NCBI RefSeq assembly: GCF_000177375.1
Contig: NZ_ADFR01000002.1
Location: 248,001-312,000 of the forward strand
Reading direction: 5' to 3'
Source of the DNA: Bulleidia extructa W1219
GTDB lineage: Bacteria; Bacillota_I; Bacilli_A; Erysipelotrichales; Erysipelotrichaceae
DNA length: 64,000 nucleotides
The notes under the pieces were generated by a model, which was given only the letters and a program-made list of their open reading frames with translations, ran no database searches and was not told where the DNA came from. Made by a program: the position numbers and the translations under genes. Positions 124 to 58,687 of this stretch are shown here, piece by piece (position 1 is the first letter of the stretch; each line of letters starts with the position of its first letter).

Positions 124-1050
124 ATGCCAAATCAAAAAGTATGTGATTTCGATTTACGCGAAGGCGGTATCTTCCACAATCGATTAGAAAAATTATCGGA
201 TGGGCATTATATTTGTAAGCACTGCAAAGAAATTATTAAAGGATATGGCTTGCCCATTAAGTTTGATATCTTTCAAATGTTAGTGACAGCTCAACCAAAT
301 ATGGTAGATACCGTCATGGATACCTATTTGAAACATCACAATCCTGAGGAAGTCATTGCAACCCATTATCCATTACCAAGCATCGCATTGCACCATGGGG
401 AACACTGTATTAATGCACTATCCGCTTCACAAGTGGTTCCGGAATCACAAATTCCTACAACAGAAGCAGTAAAATCTATTTCTGAAATTGATAAAGAAGC
501 CATCTCCAATATCCCAAATGCGGATGGCAGAGTGGGTAGTCAACAAGTCAAGGGGATGTTATTTGAAACCGAAGCAGCGATTTATTTCTTAAGTGATCAT
601 TATGTTAATGTTCATCGCCTTGGTTATGTAAAACGCAATCAAGAACACACCGATCGTGTTGAAATTGAAACACCCACCAAAAAATTCACTTATAAAATAA
701 AACACGCTGATTTATTTTTCTTAAGAGAACGCTTTTTCCAGAAAGTGAATAATGTTATCAATCATAAAGACAATAAATTGATCTTTATTAATAATGATAA
801 TCAATACACTGTCACTCCCGGAATTTATGATGTTCCCAAAAATCTTCGTCCTGGTGAATATAGTGTCAAAGCCATTCGAGATGCCGGGCTTCATGTGAAA
901 GATATCCATGGTCGTGTGACAGATTATTATGAATCCGAAAGTTCCATTGTTCTTCCCGAAGGTGGAATTCTTGAAGTCACTGGTGAATATCAATTAGAAT
1001 GGGTTGCCGGTTTAGGAAAATCGACCACAAAGAAAGAAAAAGAGGTCTAA
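124..1050 (+). CDS. hypothetical protein with CxxC motif, first gene of ECF-S operon
   Basis: A 308-aa soluble protein without signal peptide or membrane segments; I do not recognise its N-terminal part. One CxxC motif (CKHCKEI, about residue 31) suggests a half zinc ribbon. The C-terminal 90 residues have the 'xPGxY.. PGEYxVKA ... VLPEGGxLEVTGE' rhythm of small beta-sandwich domains found in many uncharacterised Firmicute proteins. The start follows a canonical Shine-Dalgarno. The stop lies 5 nt before the downstream ECF S-component gene, so the two are probably cotranscribed and translationally coupled. No function can be assigned. Confidence 0.8.
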   Translation: MPNQKVCDFDLREGGIFHNRLEKLSDGHYICKHCKEIIKGYGLPIKFDIFQMLVTAQPNMVDTVMDTYLKHHNPEEVIATHYPLPSIALHHGEHCINALSASQVVPESQIPTTEAVKSISEIDKEAISNIPNADGRVGSQQVKGMLFETEAAIYFLSDHYVNVHRLGYVKRNQEHTDRVEIETPTKKFTYKIKHADLFFLRERFFQKVNNVINHKDNKLIFINNDNQYTVTPGIYDVPKNLRPGEYSVKAIRDAGLHVKDIHGRVTDYYESESSIVLPEGGILEVTGEYQLEWVAGLGKSTTKKEKEV

Positions 1051-1055
1051 CTGCA

Positions 1056-1559
1056 ATGAACACCAAACGTTTGACATTAATGGCTTTAATGATGGCCTTA
1101 GTGATTGTTCTATCCTCTTTCAGCCTACCGGTTCCTGGTGGTCACTTGTATTTAAATGATGTGGTGATTGTCTTAGCCTCTTTACTCTTTAGCCCTACAG
1201 AGGCGATGTTAGTTTGTGGATTTGGAGCTTTCTTAGGAGATTTTTTCTTTTATCCGGCTCCCATGTTTGTTTCATTAGTGACACATGGCTTACAAGGTTA
1301 TATGATTTCCTATTTAGCTCATTCTGATGGTCGACTGATTTCTAAAAAACGCAGCTTATTCGCTACTTGTATAGGCGCTTTGATCATGGTTTTAGGATAC
1401 ACTTTAGGGAGAGCTTTCGTTTATTCAACCTTAAAAACGTCTATCATTAAACTTCCATTTGAAATTTTACAAGCTTCTTTCGGAGTTGTCTTTGGTTATT
1501 TCTTACGCTATCGTATCGTTTTAAAACAAATAGAAGAAATAGTGAATGAATCACTCTAA
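1056..1559 (+). CDS. ECF transporter S component, copy 1
   Basis: A 167-aa integral membrane protein with about five or six hydrophobic helices, matching the ECF-type S component family: the substrate-binding subunit that works with a shared EcfA/A'/T energy-coupling module encoded elsewhere. The ATG at 1056 is preferred over upstream in-frame codons because the product then starts exactly like its downstream paralogue (MNTKRLTLMALMMALVIVLS) and its upstream bases (GAGGTCTAACTGCA) match those of copy 2. Substrate is unknown; the following chorismate mutase gene hints at an aromatic or cofactor precursor, which is inference. It shares a nearly identical 200-nt central segment with copy 2. Confidence 0.85.
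   Translation: MNTKRLTLMALMMALVIVLSSFSLPVPGGHLYLNDVVIVLASLLFSPTEAMLVCGFGAFLGDFFFYPAPMFVSLVTHGLQGYMISYLAHSDGRLISKKRSLFATCIGALIMVLGYTLGRAFVYSTLKTSIIKLPFEILQASFGVVFGYFLRYRIVLKQIEEIVNESL
1260..1459 (+). repeat. near-identical segment shared with 1885-2084
   Basis: This 200-nt segment differs from 1885-2084 at only one position (A1302 versus G1927); 1303-1459 is identical to 1928-2084 over 157 nt. The flanking parts of the same two genes carry many synonymous differences. Such a mosaic is the signature of recent gene conversion between tandem paralogues. Confidence 0.85.
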
Positions 1560-1680
1560 CAAAGAAATTCCCTCTATTATCATTTTTAAAATTTACAATA
1601 TCCCAAAGATTTTCTTTAGATACCGATTAAACTGAATTCACAGTTTCATAAAAACCACAAAAAAGAGAGGTCTAACTGCA

Positions 1681-2172
1681 ATGAATACCAAACGTTTGAC
1701 ATTAATGGCTTTAATGATGGCCTTGGTGATTGTTCTATCATCTTTCAGCCTGACGGTTCCCGGTGGTCACTTATATTTGAATGATGTAGTGATTGTCTTA
1801 GCCGCCTTATTATTCAATCCAAAAGATGCCTTGTTAGTTTGTGGACTTGGTGCCTTCTTAGGAGATTTTTTCTTTTATCCAACCCCCATGTTTGTTTCAT
1901 TAGTGACACATGGCTTACAAGGTTATGTGATTTCCTATTTAGCTCATTCTGATGGTCGACTGATTTCTAAAAAACGCAGCTTATTCGCTACTTGTATAGG
2001 CGCTTTGATCATGGTTTTAGGATACACTTTAGGGAGAGCTTTCGTTTATTCAACCTTAAAAACGTCTATCATTAAACTTCCATTCCAAATCTTACAAGCT
2101 TCTGTCGGGGTCATGTTTGGTTATTTCTTACGGTATCATACCGTTCCAAAACAAGTAGAGGAAATTTTATGA
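1681..2172 (+). CDS. ECF transporter S component, copy 2
   Basis: A 163-aa tandem paralogue of the preceding gene with the same start and hydrophobic helices; it diverges mainly in the first 65 residues and at the C-terminus, where copy 1 has a short extra tail. As an S component it would bind a small vitamin-like or metabolite substrate in the membrane and associate with a common ECF module. It is separated from copy 1 by 121 nt without an obvious gene, and the repeat unit extends about 30 nt upstream of the ATG. Its stop overlaps the next start (ATGA at 2169), so it is translationally coupled to the chorismate mutase. Confidence 0.85.
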   Translation: MNTKRLTLMALMMALVIVLSSFSLTVPGGHLYLNDVVIVLAALLFNPKDALLVCGLGAFLGDFFFYPTPMFVSLVTHGLQGYVISYLAHSDGRLISKKRSLFATCIGALIMVLGYTLGRAFVYSTLKTSIIKLPFQILQASVGVMFGYFLRYHTVPKQVEEIL

Positions 2173-8038: not shown

Positions 8039-8770
8039 CTATTTTTTGATTCCTAATATACCTTCAGCATGTAATATTTCTTGTGCTGTCGGTTGTGGAG
8101 TGTCAGGAATGGGATAAGGAATTCCTAAATGTTCATATTCCACTTTAGCCATGGCGTGATAAGGAAGAATCTCAACCCTTTCCACATTTTCAAGAGTATC
8201 TATGAAGTTTTTTAACTGGATTAAATCTTCATCATTGGCTGTAATCCCCGGCACTAAAACATGGCGAATCCATACCGGTAGCTTTCGATCACTTAAATCT
8301 CTCGCTAATTCTAAGATATTTTCATTCGACCAGCCGGTTAATTTCTTATGTGTCACCATATTCATTTCTTTAATGTCCAATAAAACCAAATCAGTCACTT
8401 TCATCAAGCGTTCAAATTTTGCATACCATTCCGGATTTTTGGTGTAAGGATTACCGGAAGTATCTAGCGTGGTATGAATATGGTGTTTGTGGCAGATTTC
8501 AAACAATTCAATCAAAAAATCAATTTGTGCTAAAGCTTCTCCGCCGGATACCGTAATACCGCCACCATTTTTCCAATACGATTGATAACGAATGGCTTTT
8601 CGGAATACTTCTTCCGCACTCATTTCCATTCCTTGTTTAAATTTCCAAGTTTCTGGATTATGACAATACAAGCAACGCATCGGGCAACCTTGCATAAAGA
8701 CAATAAAGCGAACGCCCGGTCCATCGACAGCCCCAAAGCTTTCAAATGAATGAATATAGCCTTTTGTCAT
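8039..8770 (-). CDS. pflA: pyruvate formate-lyase-activating enzyme
   Basis: A 243-aa radical-SAM enzyme that installs the glycyl radical on pyruvate formate-lyase. The radical-SAM cysteine motif CxxxCxxC is seen as GCPMRCLYCHNP at about residues 29-40, followed by 'GGGITVSGGEAL' for SAM binding and 'VTDLVLLDIKEMN'. Length is typical for PflA. It follows pflB on the same strand with a strong Shine-Dalgarno (AGGAGGA), but an attenuator-like hairpin lies between the two genes. The enzyme is oxygen-sensitive, which implies anaerobic growth. Confidence 0.96.
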   Translation of the reverse strand: MTKGYIHSFESFGAVDGPGVRFIVFMQGCPMRCLYCHNPETWKFKQGMEMSAEEVFRKAIRYQSYWKNGGGITVSGGEALAQIDFLIELFEICHKHHIHTTLDTSGNPYTKNPEWYAKFERLMKVTDLVLLDIKEMNMVTHKKLTGWSNENILELARDLSDRKLPVWIRHVLVPGITANDEDLIQLKNFIDTLENVERVEILPYHAMAKVEYEHLGIPYPIPDTPQPTAQEILHAEGILGIKK

Positions 8771-8792
8771 GGTGTCCTCCTATGGATAAAAA

Positions 8793-16144: not shown

Positions 16145-16675
16145 TTATTTCACTATTTTTTGTACTCTACTCCACAACAACGGTACAATCAATAAACAAA
16201 TCACCATTGTGGCTAAGTTATACCAAGCGTTATAGTTTAAGGAAAAAATCCATGCGACAGTAGAACCGGCTGCACCTGTCTTCGGTGGCCAGAAATAAAC
16301 ACCCGACAACACTTGAGATACATATTTAATCCCCATGGCTAACACAATAGATAAACCGAATTTCTTGGGAAATATACTAGCCACTCCCACAATTCCTAAT
16401 GGCAATACATAATCTAACATAATTTGAATAGGATGATTGAACCACATTTCCGCTCCCATCATAAATGTGATCAGCCAAGATAAAAAAGCAACGAATATTC
16501 CACCTGAACATCCCAAATGATAGCTAGCTATGAACAAAGCTATCAACTCAATCTCAATACTTCCACCTTGTGGCATTTTTAAGAACGGAATCAAGTTCCC
16601 GACAAACTTCAAAACAACATATAAGGCTGTATACATCGCCGTATATGTTAAAAACTTAACCTTATCTCTTTGCAT
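16145..16675 (-). CDS. thiT: thiamine ECF transporter S component ThiT
   Basis: A 176-aa membrane protein with about six helices, matching the ThiT/YuaJ family that binds thiamine with high affinity and couples to the shared ECF module. Family features seen are 'MPQGGSIEIELIALFIASYHLG', the aromatic 'SGVYFWP' loop and 'SLNYNAWYNLATMVIC'. A TPP riboswitch immediately upstream confirms thiamine as substrate. The Shine-Dalgarno AGGAGGTG lies in the riboswitch expression platform. Confidence 0.96.
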   Translation of the reverse strand: MQRDKVKFLTYTAMYTALYVVLKFVGNLIPFLKMPQGGSIEIELIALFIASYHLGCSGGIFVAFLSWLITFMMGAEMWFNHPIQIMLDYVLPLGIVGVASIFPKKFGLSIVLAMGIKYVSQVLSGVYFWPPKTGAAGSTVAWIFSLNYNAWYNLATMVICLLIVPLLWSRVQKIVK

Positions 16676-16693
16676 AAAAAAACACCTCCTAAA

Positions 16694-16772
16694 AGGCGTA
16701 GGTCTACTCCCTACGCTAGCATTACCTAGATCAGGTCAAAGGGTACATCTCAGCTTTCGCGCCCCTGTAACG
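16694..16772 (-). ncRNA. TPP riboswitch (thi-box)
   Basis: On the minus strand the conserved thi-box elements occur in order: GGGGCGC, CTGAGATGTACCC, TTTGACCTGATCTAGGTAATG and AGCGTAGGGA. The element begins just after an own promoter (TATAAT, minus strand 16783-16778). The 3' half GCGTAGG can form a hairpin with CCTACGC. If TPP binding captures GTAG in P1, the released ACCT can pair with the AGGT of the thiT Shine-Dalgarno, giving translational OFF control. The aptamer is certain; the switching mechanism is inference. Confidence 0.95.
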
Positions 16773-16794
16773 TGGTTATTATACACCTATTTAT

Positions 16795-16927
16795 TAAAAA
16801 AGGCTCTGGATAAATCCAGAGCCTGTACAAATCTGTATCGAGGAGGACCAGAACTTGTACGATCTTCCAATCTGCCCTAAAGGAAGAGCCTGCTAAACTC
16901 TTTTTTATCCATGAGTTAGCCTAGGCT
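16795..16927 (-). ncRNA. predicted small RNA of unknown class
   Basis: An independent unit of about 130 nt: promoter at 16934-16962, and terminator at 16802-16823 with a six-T run. Inside are stems TCTTCC/GGAAGA and GTACAA/TTGTAC (with an inner TCTG/CAGA). An upstream copy of GGCTCT could compete for the terminator's AGAGCC arm, so a riboswitch-like or antitermination role is possible. It contains no credible ORF (only 11 codons without a Shine-Dalgarno). thiT has its own promoter after the terminator, so this is not simply the thiT leader. It does not match SRP, 6S or tmRNA signatures known to me. Confidence 0.6.
16802..16823 (-). terminator. strong terminator of the small RNA
   Basis: Perfect 10-bp stem GGCTCTGGAT / ATCCAGAGCC with a 2-nt AA centre (which probably opens to a larger loop), followed on the minus strand by TTTTTT. 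Confidence 0.85.
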
Positions 16928-16930
16928 AAC
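16915..16930. promoter_or_regulatory. 16-bp perfect palindrome over the small-RNA start site
   Basis: GTTAGCCTAGGCTAAC is its own reverse complement and spans roughly -4 to +12 of the predicted small-RNA transcription start. It could be a repressor operator or the RNA's 5' hairpin. Confidence 0.6.
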
Positions 16931-16933
16931 TAG

Positions 16934-16962
16934 ACTATAACAAAAGCAGTTAGTCTTGTCAA
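16934..16962 (-). promoter_or_regulatory. consensus sigma-A promoter of the small RNA
   Basis: Minus-strand -35 TTGACA (16957-16962, consensus) and -10 TATAGT (16934-16939) are separated by exactly 17 nt. One of the best promoter matches in the window. Confidence 0.8.
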
Positions 16963-17073
16963 ACTATTTTATCTAATTTTTTAAAACTCTTTTTTTCATT
17001 CTTATTTTTTATGAAAACTTCCTTTGTAAAACTGATTTCCTTTAAATTTATTTCTTAAGAAACAGTGAATGGG

Positions 17074-40164: not shown

Positions 40165-40800
40165 CTATAGGCTTTTAGGTTTTTGTAAAACTATTTCCAT
40201 TTCAGGATATCTATTGAAAGAAGCGTAGTTTAATACCTCTTGATCATTTTTAATCTGCTCAATGTAAGCTAAAATCTCTCCTATCCCTGCCTCTTTAAGA
40301 GTCACTTTCCTATGCCTTAACTCCATCACATATCCAGTAGAAGGTGTCTCAGTACCAACGATGGGATATATTTCTACATCCACTTTTTTGATCGGTTGAT
40401 GTTGAATCTTATTGAAAAAGAATTTCAACCGATTTAAGTAATATTTATACTTACCATCAAATAACCTAAGCTCCGTATCCATGATCTCAAAAATGGTTAA
40501 GCCTTTAAAACTATCTTCCTGTAACAACTTGGTACTTAAATATTGATGATACTTAGAATAACAATCCTTACATAACCAATAGTAAAAATCTAATGTCACA
40601 TATCCTTCTTTTTCACATCCATCTCGATTCATGATTTTTTCAAAACACAATGTGCAATGTTCATGATCAAAATCAGGATATTGTCCTAAATGATTCTCCA
40701 AATAAAAGGTTTTGTATTCTATACTACTTGAAATACCCTTCATAGACTCATACCATCCCGTTTTTTCACCCATTATCTTAAGTGTTTGCTCGTCCATCAT
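40165..40800 (-). CDS. putative immunity protein paralogue 3 (CxxC...CxxC)
   Basis: A 211-aa cytoplasmic protein, third of three tandem paralogues. A conserved core at residues 35-105 has 'LGQYPDFDHEHCTLCFEKI', 'DGCEKEGYVTLDFYYWLCKDC', i.e. CxxC, a lone C and CxxC, probably a zinc site. N- and C-termini differ from the other two copies, and its N-terminus is the most divergent (GWYESMKGISSSIEY). Position directly behind a secreted toxin-like gene suggests immunity; no biochemical evidence. The Shine-Dalgarno AAAGGAGA fits either of two tandem ATGs. Confidence 0.75.
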   Translation of the reverse strand: MMDEQTLKIMGEKTGWYESMKGISSSIEYKTFYLENHLGQYPDFDHEHCTLCFEKIMNRDGCEKEGYVTLDFYYWLCKDCYSKYHQYLSTKLLQEDSFKGLTIFEIMDTELRLFDGKYKYYLNRLKFFFNKIQHQPIKKVDVEIYPIVGTETPSTGYVMELRHRKVTLKEAGIGEILAYIEQIKNDQEVLNYASFNRYPEMEIVLQKPKSL

Positions 40801-40809
40801 GATTCTCCT

Positions 40810-41436
40810 TTATGGTTTAGGCTTTCGGAAATTCAGTTTTACCCAAGGATATCTATTGAAAGAAGTATACTTCAATACCTCTTGATCATTTTCAACCTGC
40901 TCAATATAAGCTAAAATATCCGTTATCTCAGCTTCTCTAAGAATTACTTTTTTATATTTCAATTCTATATGATATTTATAGGCCATATAACTGGATATAA
41001 CCGGACATATTTCTACATCTACTTTTTTAATCGGTTGTTTTTTTATCTTATTGAAAAAGAATTCCAATCGCCCTATTTCATATTCATACTTACCATCAAA
41101 TAATGTCAACTCCGTATCCATGATCTCAAAAATCGTTAAGCCTTTAAAACTATCTTCCTGCAACAACTTAGCACTTAAGTATTCATGATACTTAGAGAAA
41201 CAATCCTTACATAACCAATAATAAAAATCTAATGTCACATATCCTTCTTTTTCACATCCATCTCGATTCATGATTTTTTCAAAACACATTTGACAATGGT
41301 CATGATCAAAATCAGGATATTGTCCTAAATGATTCTCTAAATAGAAGGTTTTATACTCTGTATTATCCAACACCATATCCAGAGCCCAACCTAAACCTGT
41401 TTTTTCACCTACTAGTTTAAATGTTTTCTCATCCAT
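40810..41436 (-). CDS. putative immunity protein paralogue 2 (CxxC...CxxC)
   Basis: A 208-aa paralogue, with the same zinc-type core (HCQMCFEKI ... GCEKEGYVTLDFYYWLCKDC) and an N-terminus (MDEKTFKLVGEKTGLGWALD) almost identical to paralogue 1. It begins 11 nt after paralogue 1 ends, so the three genes form one message. The C-terminal 60 residues are more variable than the core, as expected if specificity resides there (inference). Confidence 0.75.
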   Translation of the reverse strand: MDEKTFKLVGEKTGLGWALDMVLDNTEYKTFYLENHLGQYPDFDHDHCQMCFEKIMNRDGCEKEGYVTLDFYYWLCKDCFSKYHEYLSAKLLQEDSFKGLTIFEIMDTELTLFDGKYEYEIGRLEFFFNKIKKQPIKKVDVEICPVISSYMAYKYHIELKYKKVILREAEITDILAYIEQVENDQEVLKYTSFNRYPWVKLNFRKPKP

Positions 41437-41447
41437 AGTGATTCTCT

Positions 41448-42077
41448 CTAATCTATCCGTTTTTGAAAGTGTATCTTAATCCGTGGAGATGTATTGAAAG
41501 AAGCGTAGTTTAGTACTTCTTGATCTTCTTCAATCTGTTCAAGATAAGCCAAGATTTCTGCTATCCCTGCATTTCTAAGGATTACTTTTCTATGCCTTAA
41601 TTCTATCCTATATTCATTAGCCAACTCACTTCTAATGATAGGATATATCTCTAAGTCCACTTTTTTTATCGGTTGATTTTGAATCTTATTGAAAAAGAAT
41701 TCCAGTCGTTCTATTTCATATTCATATTTACCATCAAACAACATCAACTCCGTATCCATCACTTCAAAAATGGTTAATCCTTTAAAACTATCTTCCTGTA
41801 ACAATTTAGCACTTAAATATTGATGATATTTAGAAAAACAATCTTTACATAACCAATAATAGAAATCTAATGTCACATACCCTTCTTTTTCGCAACCATC
41901 TATATTCATGATTTTTTCAAAGCACAATTCACAATGGTCATGATCAAAATTAGGATATTGTCCTAAATTATCCTCTAGATAATAGGTTTTATACTCTATA
42001 TTATCCAACACAATATCCAGACCCCAATCCAAACCTGTTTTTTCACCTACCAGCTTAAATGTCTTCTCATCCATCAT
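41448..42077 (-). CDS. putative immunity protein paralogue 1 (CxxC...CxxC)
   Basis: A 209-aa paralogue, closest to the toxin-like gene, beginning 9 nt after its stop with AAGGAGAATT before two tandem ATGs. Core: HCELCFEKI ... GCEKEGYVTLDFYYWLCKDC. Cytoplasmic, without signal peptide, which suits a protein guarding the producer's cytoplasm. Proteins with this CxxC-CxxC pattern occur near polymorphic toxins in other genomes as far as I recall; the family name is not known to me. Confidence 0.78.
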   Translation of the reverse strand: MMDEKTFKLVGEKTGLDWGLDIVLDNIEYKTYYLEDNLGQYPNFDHDHCELCFEKIMNIDGCEKEGYVTLDFYYWLCKDCFSKYHQYLSAKLLQEDSFKGLTIFEVMDTELMLFDGKYEYEIERLEFFFNKIQNQPIKKVDLEIYPIIRSELANEYRIELRHRKVILRNAGIAEILAYLEQIEEDQEVLNYASFNTSPRIKIHFQKRID

Positions 42078-42086
42078 AATTCTCCT

Positions 42087-42944
42087 TTATGATTTTTTTT
42101 GAAAAGAATTATCGGGGAAAATCCTGTATCCATGATTCCCTGAACCGTCATAGTTATAATCCCAATGAAGACCATATGGTTTTCCATGCTTTAAATCCGG
42201 ATGTAAGTTTTCTCCTGTCTCCTCTTTTCTCCAAGCTCCCTTTCCGGTATCAGGAACATCATTCCCTCTCCATTTCCATCCTTCTCCCGGTGAAACGTTT
42301 GGATCGTTACCCGGATAATCGGGAACCGTATGCCCATTTCCCACATCTCTATTATCTTCTGGAGATTTTACTTCATTTTCCTTAATTGGTTGATCTTTGT
42401 TCTTGGATAAAGCTTTAACCGCTTCTTTGGTTGCCCAGCTATACCCAAAGGAAACTCCATTCAGTTTCAACCCTTTCGGTGTTACATTGACTAAAATCTC
42501 AAACCCGTTATAATCCAATTCCCATGTTGTATAAGCAATAGTGGTCAGTAGAAGAGCATACGTTACTTTTTCATAAGCTTCCGAAAGACCCGCTCCTAAA
42601 AGTTCTAATTTCGCAGCCACCCCGAGATCAAACTCATAAATTCCTATCGTCTCATTGAAAGGTGTGATTCGGGATGTTAAGTCACCCGTTTTTTTAGATG
42701 AAGATGAACTGTTCGCTCCATCATAAGCTCTATCGTGTTGTCTTGAAGGTGATTTTATAATTTCTAAAAATTCACTTTTACTGATTGTTACGCCACTTAT
42801 GGTGATACTATCTTTCGTTATTTTATAATCTTCTATATTATTAAGCTGATTTGTCTTGAAAGAATTAGTAGCCTTCACGTTTACCGGAACAACAAAATGA
42901 ATGATGACCAAAATAGATAGAAAAACCGATAAAATTTTTTTCAT
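42087..42944 (-). CDS. secreted polymorphic-toxin-like protein
   Basis: A 285-aa protein with a Sec signal peptide (residues 1-25, ending NVKA). The middle part (about 90-185) includes a hydrophobic-helix-rich stretch (LELLGAGLSEAYEKVTYALLL) and a small beta region. A Pro/Asp-rich linker (about 190-215) leads to a C-terminal domain of about 70 residues: 'GEGWKWRGNDVPDTGKGAW', 'GENLHPDLKHGKPYGLHWDY' and 'GYRIFPDNS'. This pattern matches, from memory, the C-terminal toxin domains called polymorphic toxin type 37; the paired histidines would be catalytic in a nuclease. Strong Shine-Dalgarno (AAGGAG). It follows a lipoprotein gene and precedes three putative immunity genes. Confidence 0.8.
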   Translation of the reverse strand: MKKILSVFLSILVIIHFVVPVNVKATNSFKTNQLNNIEDYKITKDSITISGVTISKSEFLEIIKSPSRQHDRAYDGANSSSSSKKTGDLTSRITPFNETIGIYEFDLGVAAKLELLGAGLSEAYEKVTYALLLTTIAYTTWELDYNGFEILVNVTPKGLKLNGVSFGYSWATKEAVKALSKNKDQPIKENEVKSPEDNRDVGNGHTVPDYPGNDPNVSPGEGWKWRGNDVPDTGKGAWRKEETGENLHPDLKHGKPYGLHWDYNYDGSGNHGYRIFPDNSFQKKS

Positions 42945-54820: not shown

Positions 54821-55360
54821 TTAGTAATTTTCTTTAGTAAGTTCGAAGTAGCTTTCTTGATAACCACATAATGGGCAAACTTTAGGAGCTTTTTTCCCTG
54901 TCATCGTGTATCCACAAATTTCACATTGCCATACAGATTCTTCATCCTTTTCAAACACACGATTATTGATCACATTACTCTTTAATTTGTTGTAACGTTC
55001 TTCATGCTCTTTTTCAACTTTAGCAACCATTTCCATTTGTGCTGCAATTTTGGTGAATCCTTCTTCGCGAGCTTCTTCAGCCATTTTCTGATACATATCG
55101 GTCCATTCATAGTTTTCACCATCAGCTCCCATTTGTAAGCAATCCGCTGTTGAAGGAATTTCTCCACCACATAAAGCTTCAAACCATAAACGAGCGTGTT
55201 CTTGTTCATTACGAGCCGTTTCTAAGAAAAGATTAGCAATTTGTTCATAGCCTTCTTCACGAGCTTTTTGAGCAAAAAAAGTGTACTTATTACGAGCCAT
55301 AGATTCACCCGCAAATGCGTCATTTAGATTCTTTTCTGTCTTTGATCCTTTTAATTCCAT
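54821..55360 (-). CDS. rubrerythrin
   Basis: A 179-aa non-haem diiron peroxidase that reduces hydrogen peroxide in anaerobes. The four-helix ferritin-like domain has the ligand motifs 'GESMARNKY', '[11 protein letters not shown]', '[14 protein letters not shown]' and 'VEKEHEERY'. The C-terminal rubredoxin-like domain is '[29 protein letters not shown]'. The ATG at 55360 has GGAGGA upstream. It indicates adaptation of an anaerobe to oxygen exposure. Confidence 0.97.
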
Positions 55361-55644
55361 GTATCTTGTCCTCCTCTTTCTGACAATCATCACAATATTC
55401 TTCAAAAAGCGTTATATGTGAACTCACTTTTCATTCAGGATGAGCTATCTCCTATTGACGATCCGGGCAGGAATCGTAAGTCAATTTCCCTAAATCAAGT
55501 AATTTCCCATACTTTAAACAAACAAAATGACTGTTTTCACCAACCATCTATGGATTTTTTGTTCTATTTGTCTTCTTTTCATACGCTTATTGAGAACTAT
55601 TTTCATTATAAAAGAGAATCATCCGATTTCAAACCGTTTATAAA

Positions 55645-55668
55645 AAAGAATGTGTTTCCACATTCTTT
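55645..55668 (-). terminator. terminator of M16C protease gene
   Basis: AAAGAATGTG / CACATTCTTT with 4-nt loop and minus-strand T run. The rest of the gap 55361-55644 contains the rubrerythrin promoter region and no gene I can support. Confidence 0.85.
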
Positions 55669-58524
55669 ATTCTTTGATTGATAGTTTTTTATATCCATCT
55701 AGCTTTGATACCGCCTCTTCATTTCCGATCACCACTTGAAAACGATGCTTCAAAGCTTCTTCCACTTGATCCGCTAATGCAAGATAATCTTCCTTCTTCA
55801 TGGCTAAAAGGCGTTCCCGTTCCGCTTGACGAATATGATCGTCAATTGAACTTAAGACTAATGTATCTCCCGTCTTCACTTGACTACGATAATTCATTAA
55901 CGGTTCCATCGTCGCAATAGTTCCAATAATGTTTAAGTCGTTTTCCGTTTCCGGTTTTTTCACAAAATCTCGTAAATAATCCGCAATTTTTTGATTTACC
56001 TCTAAAGAAACTATCGGATTCGGATCACGATAGGAGAAAGTATTGAAACCTAAACGATTACTTCTCATACCTGTTCCATACGCTCCGTTTTTCACTCGAA
56101 CTTCTGTCCACAAAAAATCATAGGTCACCAAATGAGCCAGTACTTGGAAACAAGGATCATATGTTTCCATCTTAGCAGCTACACCCGTATAAGAAACTCC
56201 ACCCGAGATTTGAAGAGCTTCTTTTTCATCTTGTAACAATGGATAGTGGACCACCGTACCGTTTGCTTTCACAGTATTTAATCCAAAGATAAAATCTTCA
56301 AACTTCTCTTTTTCAATGCCGGCTATAGATAAAATGAAGCGATCTTGACTGAAGATCACAGAGATGTTATTTTGAATAGCTTCTAAGAAACCTTCCCAAT
56401 CTTCTTCAAAATGATCTTCTAACGATTGTAAATAGGCACCATAGGTAATACCACGTGTATATTCATTGAAAACCCCTTCTGCTGAAGTATGAGCCTTTGC
56501 TCGTAACAAGGCATATTGATGACCGCTATTTACTAACGATTGACGAATAGATTCGTTACTTTGTTTTAAAAGATTTAAAACAAATTCCTTTTCAAACTTC
56601 GTCTTAAACAGAATTTCTTGAACCAAAGCAATGGCTTGATCTACATTTTTCTCTAATGTGGAAGCCGTTACTTCTAAGAATGGTTGTGTTCCGTCGGTTC
56701 GGTTATATGGTGTAAAACAAGTGACTCCAGTACTTAAAACAGGAATGACATTCTTGATTTCAGAGGTTAATGCGGATAGAGAATAGTTCTCCGTTGCTAA
56801 ATTACCCAACAATTGTCGAGTAAAGAAAGCCACTTCCGATAGCCGATCCTTTGGCAATCCGGCCAATGAGAAATATAAATTAAAATGCACAATACCGGAT
56901 GGGTCTGATGGATGAATCAGAACACGTGTTCCACGATAGGAAATCTCTTCTGTTGGAAAAAGGATCACTTTTGATTGAACATCACTTAAGGATAATTTTG
57001 GCATGGTATCCAATTGTTCCTTGGTATCCGGTGTGGTTTGCCAAGCCTCTAAAGCCAACTGTTCCTCAATATATGGTCGTGCGTTTTCCCAGTTTGCTTG
57101 ATCGGCTAACAAACGAGCTTGTTCCGCTTCATCTCTTCTCTTCGCAATTGTTTTAGAAGGTTTGGCAATCACCGTGACCCAATGTTCTTCATCATCATAA
57201 AATTCCTTCATCATTTCTTCAAAATAAGAAGTGGAAATTTCTTCTCTTAATTCATTGAAAATAGAAGATAACTGAATTCCGTCTATTGGATCTCCATCGT
57301 ATAACCAAGTTTCCAAGGAGTGAAGACTGTTCAATAAGCCGGCCGGTTCACTCTTTTCTCGATAATGAAACTCCATGCCGTTAATGCTAGCTTCTAATTC
57401 TTTTGGATCAAAATGATAATCCTTTGTGACAAAACGAATCACTTCTTTGATTTTTTCCAAATGTTCTTCTTCCGTATTAACCAGCATTAAAATAGAGAAT
57501 GGTTGTTGCAGTTCTGTTTCTAAACTATAATCCACATCTTGTGCTAAACCGGATTCTAAGATAGCCTTCTTTAAAGGAGCTTCGTTCGTTCCAACCAAAA
57601 TCGAATGCACAATTGACATAGCTATTTTCTTTTTAATTCATAGAAATGACCCAAAATCTTACCAAAACTGATATAACTACGATTTTCCGAACTGTCTTCT
57701 GGAGCTATCTCAATTTCAATGGTAGAAGTACGAGCAGGCAATACTTCTTGATTTTCAATAGTAAACGATTCTCCTTTTTCATAATGAGAGAAATATTCTT
57801 CATCAATCAATTTCAAAACCGTTTCAATATCCACATTTCCATCTAAAATAACCCTTGCATTACTTGGATGATAAAACTTTTTATGAGTTTCTAAAAATTT
57901 TTCATACGTTAAATCCGGAATTGCTTTAGGATCTCCCCCTGAAACATATTGATACGAATTGGATGGATATAGTTGTCGGAACATTTCATCAAATATGTTG
58001 GAGTACACATCCGAAAAAACTCCTTTCATTTCATTTAGAACAACCCCATTGAATTTTGGCACTTCTTTTTCATCATGAATTTCATAGCGCCAGCCTTCTT
58101 GTAAGAAAATATTTTTATTCTCATAAATAGCCGGATTGAATACTGCATCCATATAAACAGACATTAAATTCATAAAGTCCTTGTCATTACGGGAAGAAAC
58201 AGGATAAACCGTTTTATCCGGATATGTCATGGCGTTTAAAAAGGTCTGCATAGAGTGTTTTAGCAAATCGACAAAAGGTTCTCTGGTGCGGTATTTTTTA
58301 GAACCATTTAAAACAGAGTGTTCTAAGATATGGAAAACACCTGTATCATCAAAAGGTAATGTCTTAAAGGTAATCGAAAAAGTCTTATTCGTATCCGCTG
58401 TTTGAATCCAATTCAATTTAGCGTTTGTTTTATGGTGTGTAAATTCGTAAAGTTTTCCTTTTAAATCGGGTACTTCTCTGATTCGGTTTAGCGTAAAACC
58501 ACTATAGTTTTCATTGATATTCAT
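55667..58524 (-). pseudogene. M16C (PreP/insulinase-like) metalloprotease, frame broken at A5
   Basis: Two frames together make one M16C peptidase of about 950 aa. The first (58524-57622, 300 aa, AGGAGG before the ATG) holds the inverted zinc motif HILEH and 'VLNEMKGVFSD'. It stops after ELKRK, exactly where the second frame begins (MSIVHSILVGTNEAPLKKAI..., to 55667, 650 aa). One extra A in the A5 run at 57630-57634 joins them as ELKKKIAMSIVHSILVG, which fits homologues of this family. Without correction the enzyme is split between its N-terminal catalytic part and the rest. Error, recent inactivation or -1 slippage are possible. Confidence 0.85.
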
Positions 58525-58570
58525 GAAAAGCCTCCTATTTCTATTTATTGTATTAAACATACCACAATCT

Positions 58571-58613
58571 AAAATGCCGGAAAACCTTTTTGAAAGCGGT
58601 CTTCCAGCATTTT
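58571..58613 (-). terminator. terminator of ABC exporter operon
   Basis: AAAATGC...GGAA.ACC / GGT.TTCC.GCATTTT imperfect stem with minus-strand T run. Confidence 0.65.
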
Positions 58614-58687
58614 TATCTTTCATTGTCTAATGGAATATCAATAACACCATCATGGTTTTTATATTGATGGTTCCAGCTGGGATCTTT
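58613..58687 (-). pseudogene. short C-terminal gene remnant
   Basis: Directly after the ABC permease gene, an open stretch of about 23 codons without start reads KDPSWNHQYKNHDGV and ends IDIPLDNER before a TAA at 58613-58615. It looks like the tail of a lost protein. Weak evidence because of its length. Confidence 0.25.

Follow-up and report, generated by a model that had tools for sequence, protein, structure and literature searches.

A predicted, lineage-restricted small RNA gene upstream of thiT and its proposed link to an iron-starvation regulon

Upstream of thiT, the minus strand of the window analyzed here (a stretch of 64,000 nucleotides that is part of a 16-contig, 1.42 Mb genome) has the layout of a small RNA (sRNA) gene. 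Is it a genuine gene, what might control it, and on which mRNAs might its product act? The original prediction had described a TTGACA-17-TATAGT promoter, a 16-bp palindrome across the start site, a stem-rich RNA of about 130 nt and a strong terminator. All of the promoter elements were found on the minus strand where they had been placed (Table 1), with an extended −10 sequence (TGTTATAGT) that ends at position 16934, a 17-nt spacer from the −35 element and 11 of 12 consensus matches. The palindrome is present and perfect, but it measures 18 bp rather than 16 bp. Between it and the terminator lie ~100 nt of structured sequence on the minus strand, and the predicted transcript of ~131 nt, which ends as proposed in a strong terminator (10-bp stem followed by U6), folds with −48.6 kcal/mol (z-score −3.9).

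Table 1. Features of the sRNA locus, its neighbors and its predicted targets (positions in the window)
Feature	Position	Strand	Remark
Second candidate target: SD region of the pyruvate formate-lyase (PFL) activating enzyme, AGGAGGAC	8774..8781	-	gene 8039-8770
thiT	16145..16675	-	neighbor; sRNA-thiT order conserved in sister
TPP riboswitch, separate unit	16691..16776	-	own promoter TGTATAAT just upstream
Intrinsic terminator, 10-bp stem (6 G-C, 16824-16801) + U6	16795..16824	-	
Predicted sRNA transcript, ~131 nt, predicted start +/-2 nt	16795..16926	-	fold and sister homologue
Helix 3 with anti-Shine-Dalgarno loop CUCCUC	16825..16860	-	loop sequence invariant
Helix 2 UCUUCC/GGAAGA, 13-nt loop UUUAGGGCAGAUU	16863..16887	-	invariant between both species
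Helix 1 (5' hairpin)	16888..16926	-	5' arm overlaps right half of operator
18-bp perfect palindrome AGTTAGCCTAGGCTAACT over predicted +1	16914..16931	.	predicted operator, type GTTAG-N6-CTAAC
-10 element TATAGT, TG one base upstream	16934..16939	-	conserved in sister
Second, weaker match to the operator (GTTTGACAAGACTAAC, one mismatch), over -35	16949..16964	.	own genome only
-35 element TTGACA of sRNA promoter	16957..16962	-	identical in sister genome
Best conserved predicted target: rubrerythrin SD region GAGGAGGAC	55368..55376	-	gene 54821-55360

The unit and its counterpart in a sister species

Taken singly, neither the promoter nor the fold is decisive. With a looser cut-off, promoter matches of a comparable kind number 5 where 6.5 are expected, which is not significant. 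Since removal of the terminator brings the fold down to −29.6 kcal/mol (z-score −2.0), the terminator supplies much of the stability, and fold stability alone is therefore modest evidence. The unit stands above chance because it is conserved in a sister species. This homologue (G068, C1:1475079-1475179; 96 bits, E = 1.7e-19) was the single one detected, besides the window itself, when a single-sequence covariance model was searched against 70 genus-assigned genomes. Nothing further emerged with a two-sequence model in 272 genomes of the family and 315 of the order, two overlapping sets that were scored with Infernal's stricter filters. BLASTN searches of 60 relatives, phages and plasmids returned short AT-rich or terminator matches but no homologue, and exact patterns of the sRNA core were absent from viral contigs.

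As for known RNA families, Rfam searches of the window at gathering and at relaxed thresholds identified only the TPP riboswitch, the sub-threshold matches being unrelated, so that the proposed Rfam/Infernal check leaves the sRNA locus without a known family. No Rfam sRNA family model, including any that may exist for IsrR or FsrA, matched at gathering score in the window, and 6S RNA (RF00013) gave no match at the sRNA locus. The 6S-like match of this genome, which is below the cut-off (37.3 bits, E = 2.8e-6), lies elsewhere (C1:191458-191616). Both results agree with the original prediction, which could place the locus among none of the common housekeeping RNAs.

The sister species shows a mean protein identity of ~84%, and its sRNA sits upstream of the TPP riboswitch and thiT in the same arrangement. 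A comparison of homologous regions had been suggested, and it yields one relative with the sRNA and three compensatory changes. In the alignment, hardly any changes affect the promoter elements, the operator palindrome (one base differs) or helices 2 and 3 together with their loops, whereas divergence is seen in the spacer of the promoter, in the 3' arm of helix 1, in the stem of the terminator and in the flanks. About half of the spacer's 17 nucleotides differ, yet the −10 element has been kept. Three pair changes are two-sided, of which the terminator has two and helix 1 one; a further two are one-sided, and zero pairs are broken: helix 1 shows one compensatory GC to AU change and one UA to UG, and the terminator two compensatory changes and one GU. 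Where a base change spoils the sister's palindrome at the DNA level, the RNA helix carries a compensating change. In both species, the CUCCUC stretch of the helix-3 loop (GUCCUCCUCGAUA) is unpaired with a probability of ~0.99. From these comparisons, we are highly confident that the unit is a real, lineage-restricted sRNA gene, with predicted transcription. A leader peptide starting at the ATG of the helix-1 loop was considered and rejected, since this codon reads ATA in the sister and has no SD in front of it.

The surroundings differ among relatives. The relatives reached through thiT are Solobacterium/Erysipelotrichaceae MAGs, and in the thiT neighborhood of GTDB contigs six of them have the TPP riboswitch with no sRNA upstream. 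They carry instead an opposite-strand gene, which we take to resemble a GAF-domain methionine sulfoxide reductase. The trkH neighborhood shows other gene orders in the inspected genus relatives. In the sister, ~2 kb with two toxin-antitoxin-like gene pairs (L077 10999-12291) separate the sRNA from trkH, an insertion that leaves the sRNA-thiT side undisturbed.

A putative operator motif in common with iron genes

The palindrome had been called operator-like, and the recurrence of its motif at iron-uptake promoters lends support to this. At full length and with up to three mismatches, it is unique in its own genome (0.01 matches expected by chance in the window). A palindrome search with a free center in both genomes gave the motif GTTAG-N6-CTAAC, with exact sites numbering eight in the own genome and seven in the sister. 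All 15 are intergenic, as judged by inspection of the flanking ORFs, and the coding density of the own contig is 0.904; by comparison, 29 scrambled half-sites produced 14 sites on the same contig, of which 3 are intergenic. Sites conserved before orthologous genes exceed scrambled motifs by little (4 against at most 3), as counted with a gene caller other than that used for the target pairs below. The operator and target statistics refer to stretches that together make up about half of the own genome and, for the sister, more than half.

The genes next to the motif point to iron. The feoA-feoA-feoB genes (feoAAB) carry it in both species, with a tandem site (GTAAGTATAGACTAAC) 20 bp away. Further neighbors are a FecCD/FecE-type importer, MptD-type ECF components and, in the sister, flavodoxin and a 4Fe-4S ferredoxin. 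The genes for FecCD, flavodoxin and ferredoxin are textbook members of iron-limitation responses. Given the motif at feo and other iron genes, the sRNA therefore most likely belongs to an iron-starvation regulon, and its membership in the regulon that includes feo is, on the shared motif, probable.

Other sites are less easily placed. A DHH/CBS-type inorganic pyrophosphatase carries the motif in both species, and three sites in the own genome (C8:56793, C15:94394 and C15:119419) lie beside TetR-family genes, two of the three also adjoining MptD-type ECF components. These TetR-adjacent sites may be part of the same iron regulon or may be TetR operators of similar sequence, the latter being conceivable because of their position. 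In each of the two species, an aldolase-like gene has, 60 nt upstream, an identical GTTAGTGGTATATAAC, which is a weaker operator match (L173 16562; L200 3100). Within the sRNA promoter, the second operator match over the −35 element has been lost in the sister, and a third half-site in the spacer was discarded, since it is not conserved there. In the window, two tandem and nearly identical ORFs (999-2172, plus strand) resemble ECF-transporter S components.

Which repressor might bind the palindrome? The DtxR consensus TTAGGTTAGCCTAACCTAA contains TTAG-N6-CTAA twice, in overlapping units offset by 5 bp (PMC7762939), and the 19-bp iron box is bound by two IdeR dimers (PMC4689551). The sRNA site contains one TTAG-N6-CTAA unit only, not the full 19-bp box, and we read it as a possible single-dimer DtxR unit. 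DtxR-family proteins are encoded in both genomes, and the putative repressor most likely belongs to this family, although neither of its members in the own genome is a close IdeR. In the sister, two equal-scoring 125-aa DtxR-family ORFs lie ~10 kb apart (C1:222584 and C1:232295), apparently as a duplication.

Candidate targets and proposed mode of action

By its sequence, the CUCCUC loop is an anti-Shine-Dalgarno sequence, which suggests the following scheme. As long as iron suffices, a repressor that depends on metal, most likely a DtxR-family protein, would occupy GTTAG-N6-CTAAC over +1 and block transcription; when iron is scarce, it would come off and the strong promoter would fire. The sRNA would then expose the CUCCUC loop of helix 3, pair with the SD of selected mRNAs and lower their translation, so that iron would be spared. 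Rubrerythrin would be the best conserved candidate target, followed among iron proteins by the PFL activating enzyme. As a whole, the explanation (a trans-acting ~131-nt sRNA of the iron-starvation regulon, under DtxR-type control and acting by SD pairing) is the one we favor, with somewhat better than even confidence. For its predicted iron-sparing step through SD pairing, our confidence is just above even.

Among the predicted targets, the 9-mer GAGGAGGAC precedes the start in both species in just one of 415 ortholog pairs, that of rubrerythrin, which is an iron-rich protein; the pairs were compiled with a gene caller that missed genes at known sites. Four of the 415 share the 8-mer AGGAGGAC (dnaK, rubrerythrin, PFL activase and rplN), two of which encode iron proteins. 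The strongest conserved pairings are those of dnaK and rubrerythrin, the top one by energy being dnaK, which is not an iron protein. Several ribosomal proteins also rank high because of their strong SDs, and much of the ranking can be put down to SD strength in general. Proteins with Cys motifs rank above the others (p ~0.01), a result based on seven proteins, some of them false, and this iron-protein enrichment concerns a handful of genes from about half of the genome, examined post hoc. Similarly, the rubrerythrin match is only suggestive, since it was first seen on a subset. Long complementarity to one particular target was discarded, as none of the best 16-mer matches precedes a gene.

Competing explanations and known small RNAs

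Three other explanations were weighed. It is very improbable that the RNA is nonfunctional, having come together by chance or survived as a relic, and that its conservation only mirrors how closely the two species are related. The unit is indeed carried by only two genomes, and raw identity alone is unremarkable, since a rough survey of upstream regions, inflated by missed genes, gave a median best 100-nt identity of 0.83, against 0.88 for the sRNA. However, the conservation is patchwise, concentrated in helices 2 and 3 rather than in spacer and flanks; the compensatory changes come with no broken pair; promoter and terminator are intact in both species; and the operator motif is held in common with iron genes. 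We consider it less improbable, although still unlikely, that the sRNA is regulated but belongs to another circuit, whose regulator senses manganese, haem or a TetR ligand and whose targets are others. Of the two DtxR-family proteins of the own genome (C15:190662 and C15:101702), one, of 216 aa, is closest to SloR/ScaR and adjoins ABC-3-like metal permease genes, with no match to the motif near its gene, and the second, of 128 aa, is MntR-like. The motif at the DHH/CBS pyrophosphatase and at several TetR genes would fit another circuit as well. Against this stand the tandem sites at feoAAB in both species and the presence of FecCD, flavodoxin and ferredoxin among the motif neighbors.

The remaining explanation is a cis-acting leader, in which the sRNA promoter would serve as a distal promoter and transcription would, under some conditions, continue past the terminator into the TPP riboswitch and thiT, the upstream GGCUCU and the loop of helix 2 serving as antiterminator parts. 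The transcript is directed at thiT, and the gene order is conserved. Moreover, both species can form a complete alternative fold, which has been kept through the changes in the terminator: the 3' arm of the terminator pairs with the upstream GGCUCU and its 5' arm with the helix-2 loop, the latter pairing appearing in a transcription-length fold too. The GGCTCT repeat of the terminator arm, noted in the original prediction, is thus real, but the regulatory alternative pairing derived from it is not supported, as the alternative fold is 12-13 kcal/mol worse (−36.4 versus −48.8 kcal/mol in the own genome, −35.2 versus −47.9 in the sister; penalties of 12.4 and 12.7). No energetically competitive antiterminator was found before thiT. 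Furthermore, thiT has its own −10 element beside the aptamer, both in this genome and in relatives that have no sRNA, and the SD-complementary loop, which an attenuator does not need, is among the most conserved parts. Because of the fold penalty and thiT's own −10, attenuation is a minor rival, and we regard it as quite improbable. That the unit lies upstream of, and separate from, the TPP riboswitch and thiT had been predicted, and the thiT side does have its own TGTATAAT. The helix-2 loop sequence UUUAGGGC can pair with the terminator 5' arm (16801-16881, minus strand) in both species, even though this arm has undergone three changes; the pairing is energetically minor but kept.

Compared with known systems, the favored trans-acting sRNA is a candidate member of the RyhB-type functional class of iron-sparing sRNAs (IsrR, FsrA and MrsI among them); it has the class feature of an independent sRNA gene with promoter and Rho-independent terminator, as far as sequence features go. 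By analogy, it would work like IsrR and FsrA, which have C-rich motifs and act under iron limitation, without detectable homology. IsrR of S. aureus, a Fur-controlled iron-sparing sRNA, has its own sigma-A promoter with a metal-repressor operator and three stem-loops plus terminator, with C-rich unpaired regions, and its action on iron-enzyme mRNAs has been both predicted and shown (PMC9410917). The present unit likewise combines a sigma-A promoter and a predicted metal-repressor operator with three stem-loops, a terminator and C-rich unpaired regions, its targets being predictions. It differs in showing no detectable sequence similarity, in its ~131 nt with one CU-rich loop, in having GTTAG-N6-CTAAC in place of the Fur box of IsrR, and in its occurrence in two related species only. 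FsrA of Bacillus subtilis, another iron-sparing sRNA, which is iron-repressed, binds SD sequences through a C-rich motif (PMC9410917). The C-rich motif directed toward the SD is a likeness, as is the iron repression predicted here, whereas FsrA is Fur-controlled, is aided by the FbpABC chaperones and gives no sequence match.

Control of the sRNA would resemble that of MrsI from Mycobacterium tuberculosis, an iron-sparing RNA under predicted IdeR control (PMC9410917), if the repressor is of the DtxR type. Both would then be controlled by a DtxR-family iron repressor, but MrsI is actinobacterial, and the repressor here is putative. To our knowledge, no sequence relation links the two RNAs. RsaC of S. 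aureus is MntR-linked and listed for manganese in the table of a 2022 review, which lists no cognate sRNA for DtxR(Fe) (PMC9294342). RsaC is similar in being an sRNA of a Bacillota species with a link to a regulator of the DtxR family; it differs in that its metal is manganese, whereas the regulon here looks like iron.

More tentatively, and at less than even confidence, the unit may represent a new Erysipelotrichaceae sRNA family, independent of RyhB, FsrA and IsrR, in which a DtxR-type repressor acts on a single-dimer TTAG-N6-CTAA site and iron is spared through SD pairing. It possibly has a second role, with the helix-2 loop and the terminator arms as a switch before thiT. If the proposal is true, an iron-sparing RNA has evolved independently in a little-studied oral and gut family of Bacillota, tied to a DtxR-type rather than Fur-type operator, and GTTAG-N6-CTAAC is a ready motif for outlining the iron regulon in these organisms.

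Elsewhere in the window, two adjacent minus-strand ORFs (57622-58623 and 55667-57619) look like a single M16/presequence-protease-like peptidase divided into its N-terminal and C-terminal portions; the division may be genuine or may stem from a frameshift or from an error in sequencing. On the same strand (40165-42944), three tandem paralogues of ~210 aa follow a secreted protein with a toxin-type-like C-terminus, and the cluster might encode a polymorphic toxin whose immunity gene has been duplicated.
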